Shown piece by piece: positions 14,097 through 16,933 of a stretch of 64,000 nt of DNA (the first letter of the stretch is position 1; every line of letters begins with the position of its first letter). This DNA comes from Thermoplasmata archaeon (GTDB lineage: Archaea > Thermoplasmatota > Thermoplasmata > Lutacidiplasmatales > UBA184): positions 1 to 64,000 of the forward strand of contig JAGWLG010000004.1 in assembly GCA_028864975.1 (NCBI GenBank). The letters are read 5' to 3'. The translations under genes and the position numbers were made by a program. The notes under the pieces were generated by a model. It searched no databases. It was given only the letters and a program-made list of their open reading frames with translations, and was not told the DNA's origin.

Positions 14097-14182
14097 CGGC
14101 GCACGAAGCGTCGTCTCGGACTTATCTTTTGGGCCTCAGGAGCCAAGGGCACGGGAAGGAGGTCCAGCCCTCCTTCTCAAGC

Positions 14183-15694
14183 TCACGTCTTGAGCCAGCC
14201 TGCCTTGATGAAGCAGTAGATGAGGAAGGCGACGGTGAGGGCCATCCCTCCGACCACCTGCCACATCTCGAGGGGATAGGGCTGGCCCAGGAGGTTCATT
14301 CCCAGCACCCCTCCCAGGACCGCAGGGATGAGCGACAGCCCCGTGATCACCGCGAGGACCTTCAGCATCTTGTTGGTCTCGAACGCCTCCTGATTGATGT
14401 AGAGGTCCACGTCCATCTGGATGCTGTCGGTGATGTCGTCCGAGAGCTCGCCCAGGAACTCGGTGTCTCCTTGGAGGACGCGGAAGTTCTGCAACGCCTC
14501 CTCATCGAACCCGTCCAAGGGGAGACGCCCCCCGTCGATGCGGATCAACATGTCCTTCATGTGCACGAGGCTCGAGTTGACCCTCGCCATCTCGCGACGC
14601 ATCGCGTACATCCGCTCCAGGAAGTCCCTGGGCAGCCGCTCCCGGGGGAGCTTCCCGATCTTGTTGAGGTCGGCCTCGATGTCCGACAGGATGTGCCGGT
14701 ACTGGTCGAGGGTCGAGCTGAAGATCGCATAGAGGACGCCCGAGAGGTACTGCCCGGGGGGGACCTCCGAGGGGAGCCAGGAACGGGTCCGCCGGGGGAC
14801 GTCGAGGTGGTGCGGGGAGATCGTCAGGATGGTCGGTCCCGCACAGATGATCACGAGCCCGGAGCGGTCGACGCTCAGGAACTCCTCTTCGCTCGTGGGA
14901 AAGCTGACCTCCCCGGAATGCAGGAAGAGGAAGGTCGCTCGCTCGGCCCGGTGGACGTGGGGCGAGACGTTGTCGATGTCCTTGCTCTTGAAGTGCGGCT
15001 CGGGGATCTTGAGGAGCTCGCTCAACCTGTGGATCCCGGCACGACCGATCCCCTCGATGTCGATCCACTCGGGGGACGGGTTGAGGACATGCGGCGCCAC
15101 CTCCTCCCAGGTGAGCCGGCTCCCCGGGGCCTTCGCTCCGGGGGTGAGGCTGTCGATCGTCTCCGGGACCGCCGCCTCGCGGGAGGCCACCGGGCGGCCT
15201 TGTTCGTGGGTCGCGCGGCCGACCACCCGGGCCCCGACCGCGAAGGCCCGGGGAAGCCGCAGGAGCCGCAGGAGCAGCGGCCATGACCCGTGGAGCGTGA
15301 GGCCGAGCAGCGGCAGGTACGAGATGACCGAGACGACCACCACCGCGAGGTCGAGCAGCCGCCAGGGGCTCCGAAAGTGGGCCCAACGGCCCTCCGAGAG
15401 GTAGAGCTTCGCCACGTACTCGATGACGAAGAAGGCCACGACGATGACGTCCCCGACACCGAGGAATCCGAGGACGCTTGCGGGGAGCGCGACGAAGAGG
15501 GGAAGGAGGATGACGGGGACCAGCAGGACCGCGAGAACGGCCATGAAGCCGTCGGAGAGGATCGAATCGACGAGATGGCGGCCCGCGCGTCGAGGGTCTT
15601 TCGAGACGACGAAGAACGAGCGGGGCAGGTCGGCAGGGGTGATCTCTCCGGCCCCCATCGACACCGAGCGCGGGCGGTTCGGGCTAAAAAACAT
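14183..15694 (-). CDS. CorA-like divalent cation transporter with N-terminal voltage-sensor-like (ion_trans S1-S4-like) membrane module
   Basis: C-terminus ...LIPAVLGGVLGMNLLGQPYPLEMWQVVGGMALTVAFLIYCFIKAGWLKT (GMN); N-terminus FFVIEYVAKLYLSEGRWAHFRSPWRLLDLAVVVVSVISYLPLL...LLLRLLRLPRAFAVGARVVGRA. Confidence 0.85.
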   Translation of the reverse strand: MFFSPNRPRSVSMGAGEITPADLPRSFFVVSKDPRRAGRHLVDSILSDGFMAVLAVLLVPVILLPLFVALPASVLGFLGVGDVIVVAFFVIEYVAKLYLSEGRWAHFRSPWRLLDLAVVVVSVISYLPLLGLTLHGSWPLLLRLLRLPRAFAVGARVVGRATHEQGRPVASREAAVPETIDSLTPGAKAPGSRLTWEEVAPHVLNPSPEWIDIEGIGRAGIHRLSELLKIPEPHFKSKDIDNVSPHVHRAERATFLFLHSGEVSFPTSEEEFLSVDRSGLVIICAGPTILTISPHHLDVPRRTRSWLPSEVPPGQYLSGVLYAIFSSTLDQYRHILSDIEADLNKIGKLPRERLPRDFLERMYAMRREMARVNSSLVHMKDMLIRIDGGRLPLDGFDEEALQNFRVLQGDTEFLGELSDDITDSIQMDVDLYINQEAFETNKMLKVLAVITGLSLIPAVLGGVLGMNLLGQPYPLEMWQVVGGMALTVAFLIYCFIKAGWLKT

Positions 15695-15872
15695 CGCGGT
15701 GGCCGCCTTGCCCCACCGCTAGGTCGTCGATCAGACGCTGTCAGGTTACGGCCGTCCTCGACCTTCTCGAGGGAAGAGCCGCCCCTCCTCCTCGACGGGA
15801 GGGTGGGCGAATGCCGGTCGATAGCTACAGTTGAAATATGTGAATTACGCATAGTTCGAGAGAAGGGCATCG

Positions 15873-16298
15873 ATGGCCGAGAAGTTGAGCGAACCGGCAA
15901 CCCCGTCCTGGTGGCGTCGCGCGGTCCCGACCGCCTTGGCCGTCGGCATGGCCGTGACCGTCGGCTATGGTGTCCTGGAAGGCCCCCACGCCAGCGCGAA
16001 CGCGATCCCCGCTCCGTCCCAGTACACTACTCCTACGACCAGCCCGTTCTCCGACCCTCTTGTCATCGCCGGGGTCGCCCTCGGCATCCTGGTCGTGATC
16101 TTCGCGGTCCTCCTGGCCCTCCGCCTGCGCGGCGGCCGCATGGGTGGCGGGGGCGCGGGTGGCGAAGAGGAAGAGCCGAAGGACGGCTCCGACGAGGAAG
16201 AGGATGAGAACCTCGACCAAGAGGGGGACGGGACCGACTCCAGCGAGGGCCCCTCGGACACCTCGGAGGGGTCCGAACCCTCCGAGAGCTCGGCCTAA
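15873..16298 (+). CDS. Two-TM protein with acidic cytoplasmic tail (paralog A)
   Basis: RRAVPTALAVGMAVTVGYGVL - AIPAPSQYTTP - DPLVIAGVALGILVVIFAVLLALRLRGGR - Glu/Asp/Ser-rich tail. Confidence 0.65.
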   Translation: MAEKLSEPATPSWWRRAVPTALAVGMAVTVGYGVLEGPHASANAIPAPSQYTTPTTSPFSDPLVIAGVALGILVVIFAVLLALRLRGGRMGGGGAGGEEEEPKDGSDEEEDENLDQEGDGTDSSEGPSDTSEGSEPSESSA

Positions 16299-16393: not shown

Positions 16394-16933
16394 ATGGCCG
16401 AAGCACGAGCAATTTCCATGACGAGCAAGAATCGTGGCGCACAAGAGAACACCCGTCGCTGGGTCCCCCTGGGTTTGGCCACCGCCATGTCGGTCCTGAT
16501 CGCCCTGAGCGTCCTGGGGACCTCCTCGGCGCCCTCCACGGCCATCCCGGCGCCTTCCCAATACACCACGCCTCCACCTCCGTCCATCTTTGCGAACCCC
16601 GTGGTCATCGGCGGGATCGCCGCGTTCGCGATCCTCGTCATCCTCCTGCTCTTCCTGATCCTGCGCCGCCGTGGGATGTTCGGCGGCGGAGGCGGAGCCG
16701 CGACCTCTGAAGAAGAGGAAGGCGAGGGCGGTGCCGGGGCCGGCGAGGAAGATGAGGGCAGCGAAGAGAAGCCCGAGGAGGAGCAAGGCTGGGACGAGAG
16801 CCAGTCCTCCGAGAAGTCCAGCCCCAAGACCGGCGGCAACGGGAACGGCAACGGGAACGGCGACCTCGGCGACACGTTGAGCGAGCTCGACGAGCTCGCC
16901 AAGACGGCGGACCAGCAGCCCCCACGAGAATAG
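16394..16933 (+). CDS. Two-TM protein with acidic cytoplasmic tail (paralog B)
   Basis: RWVPLGLATAMSVLIALSVLG - AIPAPSQYTTP - NPVVIGGIAAFAILVILLLFLILRRRG - acidic/GN-rich tail; same layout as paralog A. Confidence 0.65.
   Translation: MAEARAISMTSKNRGAQENTRRWVPLGLATAMSVLIALSVLGTSSAPSTAIPAPSQYTTPPPPSIFANPVVIGGIAAFAILVILLLFLILRRRGMFGGGGGAATSEEEEGEGGAGAGEEDEGSEEKPEEEQGWDESQSSEKSSPKTGGNGNGNGNGDLGDTLSELDELAKTADQQPPRE

Follow-up and report, generated by a model that had tools for sequence, protein, structure and literature searches.

A rare, conserved family of archaeal proteins combining a voltage-sensor-type S1-S4 module with a CorA domain

The window analysed here, a 64,000-nucleotide stretch of DNA from a Thermoplasmata archaeon (contig JAGWLG010000004.1), contains a gene whose product joins an S1-S4 domain of the Kv/Nav/Cav type to a protein of the CorA superfamily, a homology assignment that we regard as practically certain. 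Such a pairing within one protein had been predicted from the window sequence, and was borne out by profile searches, by AlphaFold2 (AF2) and Foldseek analysis of each half, and by the presence of the same fused open reading frame (ORF) in 18 genomes. Both modules are known, and no report of a CorA-voltage-sensor fusion was found in the open-licence papers searched, an absence that is no proof; to judge from its sequences, the combination marks a conserved, rare archaeal family. We further consider it rather likely that the fusion protein mediates voltage-regulated transport. In a 2023 description, the only transporter known to be regulated by a voltage-sensing domain was SLC9C1 (PMC10620092).

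Gene and domain architecture

The gene is a single ORF with an ATG start, located on the minus strand of the window (14183-15694) and encoding 503 aa. Residues 52-152 match the Pfam family Ion_trans (PF00520; E=8.8e-10, above the curated cut-off) over profile positions 7-107 of 241. Since the match ends before S5-S6, the module is read as a voltage-sensing domain that lacks a pore. Pfam detected no S5-P-loop-S6 pore after S4 in the fusion protein; instead, the CorA domain comes next, with residues 209-497 matching PF01544 over profile positions 5-292 of 292 (E=3.7e-28; 99.1 bits against a cut-off of 27). This full-length match, together with the GMN motif at residues 465-467, substantiates the predicted CorA-like domain with two C-terminal transmembrane segments (TMs). 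The two Pfam matches do not overlap and are the only domains above the Pfam cut-off in the window protein, with neither a Na+/H+ exchanger nor a cyclic-nucleotide-binding domain among them; both families were matched in 13 of 13 fusion members scanned together. By hydropathy, the N-terminal region is broadly hydrophobic and two TM segments lie at the C-terminus. A PDB search with the whole protein gave two sets of matches, one to CorA proteins (M. jannaschii, 5e-15; T. maritima, 8e-11) and one to Cav3 and Nav channels. The topology of the chain is read as a cytosolic N-terminus, a basic S2-S3 loop, an S4 ending in the cytosol, a linker (28-45 residues long across the family) and a cytosolic CorA funnel.

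Table 1 Features of the fusion gene and its locus, in window coordinates
Feature	Position	Strand	Basis
Complete voltage-sensor-CorA fusion gene, 503 aa	14183..15694	-	ORF and Pfam
Voltage-sensing module, residues 23-162: pre-S1 'PRS..V..DPR' segment and S1-S4	15209..15628	-	Alignment, profile searches
S1 helix, residues 48-67	15494..15553	-	AF2 model
S2 helix, residues 72-98, with D82, F89, E92, K96	15401..15481	-	AF2 model and alignment
S3 helix, residues 110-126, with invariant D115	15317..15367	-	AF2 model and alignment
S4 helix, residues 138-164, kink near P148	15203..15283	-	AF2 model and alignment
S4 gating-charge-type arginines R143, R146, R149 (R-x-x-R-x-x-R)	15248..15268	-	Alignment
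Variable linker from S4 to the CorA cytosolic domain, residues 163-190, zero invariant positions	15125..15208	-	AF2 model and alignment
CorA domain (PF01544), residues 209-497	14204..15070	-	Pfam, Foldseek
Long stalk helix and first C-terminal TM, residues 398-464	14303..14503	-	AF2 model, alignment
GMN motif, residues 465-467, followed by GMNLLGQPYPLEMW where canonical CorA has MPEL	14294..14302	-	Sequence
Second C-terminal TM, residues 477-497	14204..14266	-	AF2 model, hydropathy
Stretch without counterpart at the syntenic locus of three congeners	14097..15911		Synteny

The voltage-sensor module and the CorA half

A profile of the N-terminal module, compared with the PDB, matched the sensors of eukaryotic and bacterial voltage-gated channels (Cav3, Nav, NavMs and Kv4), the best match being a Cav3.2 chain (E=1.7e-19) and NavMs scoring E=2.5e-7. 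An AF2 model of the sensor alone was of medium confidence (mean pLDDT 76, pTM 0.64). Among its Foldseek matches, the best 50 listed were all voltage-gated channels, with probabilities of 0.99-1.00, query TM-scores of 0.49-0.71 and weak E-values of about 0.01-0.1, and they included the sensors of NavMs, NavAb, Kv and CatSper. The homology searches speak against an unrelated helical bundle, an outcome that had been envisaged for this region. The module is homologous to the S1-S4 region of Nav, Cav and Kv channels (NavMs, NavAb, Cav3.x, Kv4.2), which, unlike the fusion, continue into an S5-P-S6 pore where the CorA part stands here.

Within the family, the 140-residue sensor module of the close members aligns with hardly any gaps. 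All 17 close members (window protein included) retain D82, F89, E92 and K96 in S2, in the spacing D-x6-F-x2-E-x3-K, as well as W111 and D115 at S3, and R143, R146, P148, R149, A152 and R156 in or after S4. F89, E92 and D115, i.e. an aromatic and an acidic residue in S2 and an Asp in S3, are also kept in the one divergent member, L038. The family alignment shows no conserved acidic counter-charge in the middle of S1. For S4, the original prediction of an arginine at every third residue holds over three turns (R143, R146 and R149), a pattern found in 17 of the 18 members and reduced to two arginines in L038, and does not extend beyond them: position 152 is Ala in 17/17 close members, P148 sits between the second and third arginine, R156 is out of register though invariant, and R160 is not conserved. 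On each sequence test applied, the module reads as a voltage-sensing domain, but one with few charges.

The sensor is the best conserved region of the fusion protein (34 of 140 positions invariant in 15 members), mean pairwise identity being 61% here, 55% in the stalk and TMs, 45% in the cytosolic part of CorA and 26% in the linker. Substitution rates show the fusion gene to be under purifying selection: in each of the four sister pairs tested, dN/dS stays under 0.4 for the sensor and for the two CorA segments alike.

In the CorA half, the AF2 model of the whole chain (medium confidence; mean pLDDT 69.9, pTM 0.58) comprises the CorA alpha/beta domain, willow-like helices, the stalk helix and the second TM, and its best Foldseek matches in the PDB were to T. 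maritima CorA (E 3.4e-12; TM-score by target up to 0.73). Thr440, Asn441 and Leu447 correspond to T287, N288 and L294 of the T. maritima CorA pore helix and are conserved in 15 of 15 members checked, the pore-lining Thr440/Asn441 pair being invariant across the 17 close members; the gating-ring Asp277 (T. maritima CorA) is conserved in most of the 15. The fusion shares with the CorA/2-TM-GxN superfamily (T. maritima and M. jannaschii CorA, Mrs2, ZntB) the PF01544 domain, the CorA fold, the stalk helix, two C-terminal TMs, GMN and the pore-helix Thr/Asn. It differs from that superfamily in its added N-terminal S1-S4 module and in the loss of MPEL, of D89/D253 and, in one clade, of GxN. None of the 15 members checked has the MPEL (with Glu320) that follows GMN in canonical proteins; Tyr or Phe stands in place of the Glu, and D89 and D253 of the regulatory inter-subunit Mg2+ site (T. 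maritima numbering) are likewise missing in 15/15. Of four canonical archaeal CorAs, two lack the D89 and D253 residues as well; these are thus no strict family marker, and their loss is not special by itself. Distant CorA homologues that lack MPEL and have only GxN left are already known (PMC9276622). The window protein scores 72 bits against the NCBIfam corA equivalog TIGR00383, under its cut-off of 200.75, and the family is very divergent, being set apart from four canonical archaeal CorAs by a fusion-side branch of 2.93 changes per site. Taken by its motifs, the fusion is a 2-TM-GxN superfamily member that falls outside the canonical CorA subgroup (YGMNFxxMPEL).

GxN itself is retained in 11 of the 18 members, as GMN (window protein, L054, L055, L073 and the divergent L038), GQN (L051, L052, L094), GTN (L053, L074) or GAN (L093). 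The seven others (L056, L057, L058, L059, L060, L061, L062) form a single, well-supported clade in which five proteins carry GID and two carry GVS, and in which the loop is shorter by three residues. Because the window protein and L038 both carry GMN, the comparison suggests GMN to be ancestral and GID/GVS to be derived. In this clade, the sensor residues are invariant and dN/dS is low despite the loss of the GxN Asn; with both the Asn and three loop residues gone and the sensor kept in seven members, pore function is not uniformly conserved. The GID/GVS proteins may be non-conducting or altered in selectivity.

Distribution, locus and history

The proposed phylogenetic profiling of the fusion yielded 18 genomes with the same layout, i.e. 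the window and 17 further homologues, some of them from soil archaea. This shared ORF also excludes that the two regions are separate translated proteins. The hosts are Thermoplasmata of two families and genomes of the order that includes 'Nitrososphaerales' MAGs. Profile searches recovered 10 fusions among the 103 genomes of the window's taxonomic family (f1), and a scan of genome contigs added three, two from genomes labelled 'Nitrososphaerales archaeon' and one from an 'archaeon' MAG of another project. Two further fusions came from the order of the 'Nitrososphaerales archaeon' genomes, two from a phylum-wide sample of that group, and one, the divergent L038, from another Thermoplasmata family. 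L038 (1159-2712, minus strand, genome G380) keeps GMN, has two of the three S4 arginines and has S2 Asp82 replaced; it is 27% identical to the window protein, compared with 37-46% for the other 16 close members. A sample of 390 genomes from the window's phylum yielded no fusion other than that of the window, and the order of L038 contributed one in 120 genomes. The fusion family is rare, yet conserved.

A single-sequence scan of genome contigs found no relatives, and an alignment-based scan found them. Several matches in a PF00520 scan of 400 genomes of the class covered S1-S4 only and lay in ORFs of ~500-650 aa; these were full-length relatives with the same domain order. A scan of viral contigs returned no fusion, so that a viral source is not supported. 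In another family of the class, the ORFs L014/L040 (G269) and L039 (G366), of 260 and 160 aa, contain only the S1-S4 part of Ion_trans and are candidate stand-alone archaeal voltage-sensor proteins.

Three congeners of the window genome (G001-G003) share the order of the locus, which runs from the 2-oxoacid:ferredoxin oxidoreductase genes over a 152-aa membrane ORF to a small ORF starting near 15873. They lack a counterpart of the stretch that contains the fusion gene, whose flanks are 195 bases apart in G001. The gene is thus accessory, having been gained in the window genome or lost in the congeners. The small ORF (15873-16298, plus strand) and its neighbour (16394-16933, plus strand) encode adjoining paralogous small proteins. 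Both have an 'AIPAPSQYTTP' segment, a single transmembrane helix and a C-terminus that is acidic and of low complexity; the former protein is kept in the three congeners. An all-against-all comparison of flanking ORFs revealed no conserved operon or partner gene; neighbours were shared mainly between sister pairs, and genome context therefore gives no functional clue.

Within f1, CorA (PF01544) occurs in exactly 10 of the 103 genomes, always as the fusion, and CorA matches were obtained in 14 of 14 control genomes. Of three fusion-bearing genomes tested outside f1, G658 alone has an ordinary CorA as well. MgtE, as an alternative or companion, was found in none of 22 genomes tested (19 from f1); the search for Mg2+ importers in f1 covered CorA and MgtE. 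The whole family f1 (103 genomes) is without a canonical CorA. An in-place fusion with a native CorA gene was ruled out, f1 having no other CorA. Separate trees of the sensor half and the CorA half recovered largely the same groups, as expected from a single fusion event after which the two halves were inherited together and occasionally passed from one archaeal lineage to another.

Voltage regulation and its alternatives

For the fusion protein we infer charge movement in the sensor, its coupling to the pore, a divalent-cation substrate (possibly Mg2+), a pentameric assembly and a direction of gating; a pentamer of the Mg2+ type with membrane-potential sensing, as put forward in the original prediction, is plausible. 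In the proposed mechanism, the N-terminus would lie in the cytosol, and the chain would cross the membrane four times as the sensor, return to the cytosol and continue through a flexible linker into the CorA alpha/beta funnel domain, ending in the two CorA pore helices. Five subunits would most likely assemble via the CorA part, with five sensors surrounding the pore. Upon a change in membrane potential, the three S4 arginines would travel through the charge transfer centre (F89/E92/D115), and the motion of S4 would, via the linker, pull or push the funnel gating the CorA pore, with the outcome that divalent-cation flux would depend on membrane voltage. In ordinary CorA, intracellular Mg2+ bound between subunits closes the channel. 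The D89/D253 sites for this closure are gone in the members checked, which makes a different gating input plausible; with the Mg2+ sites lost and a voltage sensor in the same chain, the most economical interpretation would be that linker-transmitted S4 movement replaces or overrides Mg2+ gating. Speculatively, a benefit could be a pore that shuts when the membrane potential collapses or reverses, stopping a leak of Mg2+ outward. In proteoliposomes, a membrane potential enhances transport by ordinary CorA (PMC6972854).

Against voltage gating stand the three in-register S4 charges, compared with four to six in many channels, and the proline between the second and third. The missing third arginine and D82 of L038, the lack of a conserved acidic residue in mid-S1, the loss of the GxN Asn in seven members and the medium confidence of the AF2 models weigh in the same direction. 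SLC9C1 (sNHE), the voltage-gated Na+/H+ exchanger of animal sperm, likewise joins a voltage-sensing domain to a transporter; its charge of 3.1 e0 is carried by three S4 arginines (PMC10620092), and it shows that three such residues suffice to gate a transporter. Its charge transfer centre is formed by Y743, E746 and D767 (PMC10620092, PMC13095418), to which F89, E92 and D115 of the fusion correspond, as they do to the gating-charge transfer centre of Kv/Nav channels; D82 precedes the aromatic residue by seven positions, as N736 precedes Y743 in SLC9C1. Unlike the fusion, SLC9C1 is a eukaryotic, dimeric 13-TM exchanger with a cyclic-nucleotide-binding domain and without a CorA part, and resembles the fusion in function, without homology in the transport domain. 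In voltage-sensing phosphatases (Ci-VSP), too, an N-terminal voltage sensor acts via a linker on a C-terminal effector that is not of the channel type; they differ in being eukaryotic and in having a cytosolic phosphatase as effector (PMC6298786).

The paucity of S4 charges could also mean that S1-S4 has a voltage-sensor fold without sensing, serving as a membrane anchor, an assembly platform or a lipid- or partner-binding domain of a CorA-type transporter gated independently of voltage. The small number of S4 charges, the proline inside S4, the Ala that takes the fourth position throughout the 17 close members and the reduction to two S4 arginines in L038 fit this explanation, and TMEM266 is a precedent for a four-TM voltage-sensor-like module without known channel function (PMC13095418). 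We nevertheless consider it unlikely: D82, F89, E92, K96, D115, R143, R146 and R149 are strictly kept across 17 members whose overall identity to the window protein is 37-46%, charge-transfer residues would be superfluous for an anchor, and three effective charges suffice in SLC9C1. Quite improbable, in our view, is a mainly voltage-driven signalling or regulatory protein, in which CorA, at least in the GID/GVS clade, would be a degenerate, largely non-conducting pentameric scaffold relaying the signal to the cytosol. The GID/GVS sequences with their shorter loop in 7/18 members under persisting purifying selection, the lack of MPEL and the superior conservation of the sensor agree with such a role, and are countered by the GxN in 11 members, by the invariance of Thr440/Asn441 in the close ones, by the precedent of GxN-only CorA homologues without MPEL (PMC9276622) and by the flanking ORF comparison, which revealed no conserved signalling partner gene nearby.

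A further alternative, a module with its own Hv1-like voltage-gated proton or cation pathway coupled to a CorA/ZntB-like transporter, appears very improbable. Hv1 has three S4 arginines as well, but its selectivity-filter Asp lies in the middle of S1, where the fusion alignment has no acidic residue. ZntB, of the same superfamily, is proton-driven (PMC6972854); a review describes archaea as lacking Hv channels (PMC13095418). As all genomes are draft assemblies, including MAGs, one might finally think of two genes joined by misassembly, by a frameshift fusion or through a mis-binned contig. An artefact of this kind is scarcely credible and is refuted by the single ORF, free of internal stops and variable in its linker, in 18 separate genomes, and by the flanks of the window, whose synteny with three congeners indicates that the contig is correctly binned.

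Voltage-regulated transport, the reading that we favour, invites a bolder version, which we offer tentatively. Within the CorA superfamily, the fusion could be the first member gated by voltage, and among prokaryotic transporters the first under the control of an S4-type voltage sensor, membrane-potential gating having replaced the ancestral Mg2+ gating and perhaps closing the channel in soil-dwelling or acid-tolerant archaea when the potential collapses or reverses; one clade would later have lost the pore signature while the sensor stayed. If a sensor indeed acts on a pentameric CorA pore, voltage sensors would have been coupled to a pore other than the 6-TM type at least once more, in prokaryotes, and the fusion would offer a compact five-fold system for studying how S4 motion drives a distant gate. 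The clade without GxN provides a natural test of a role of the sensor beyond the pore. For the organisms themselves, the sequences suggest that metal uptake may be switched by membrane voltage in fusion-bearing archaea, in which case one would have to ask what leads certain archaea to make metal uptake depend on their membrane potential.
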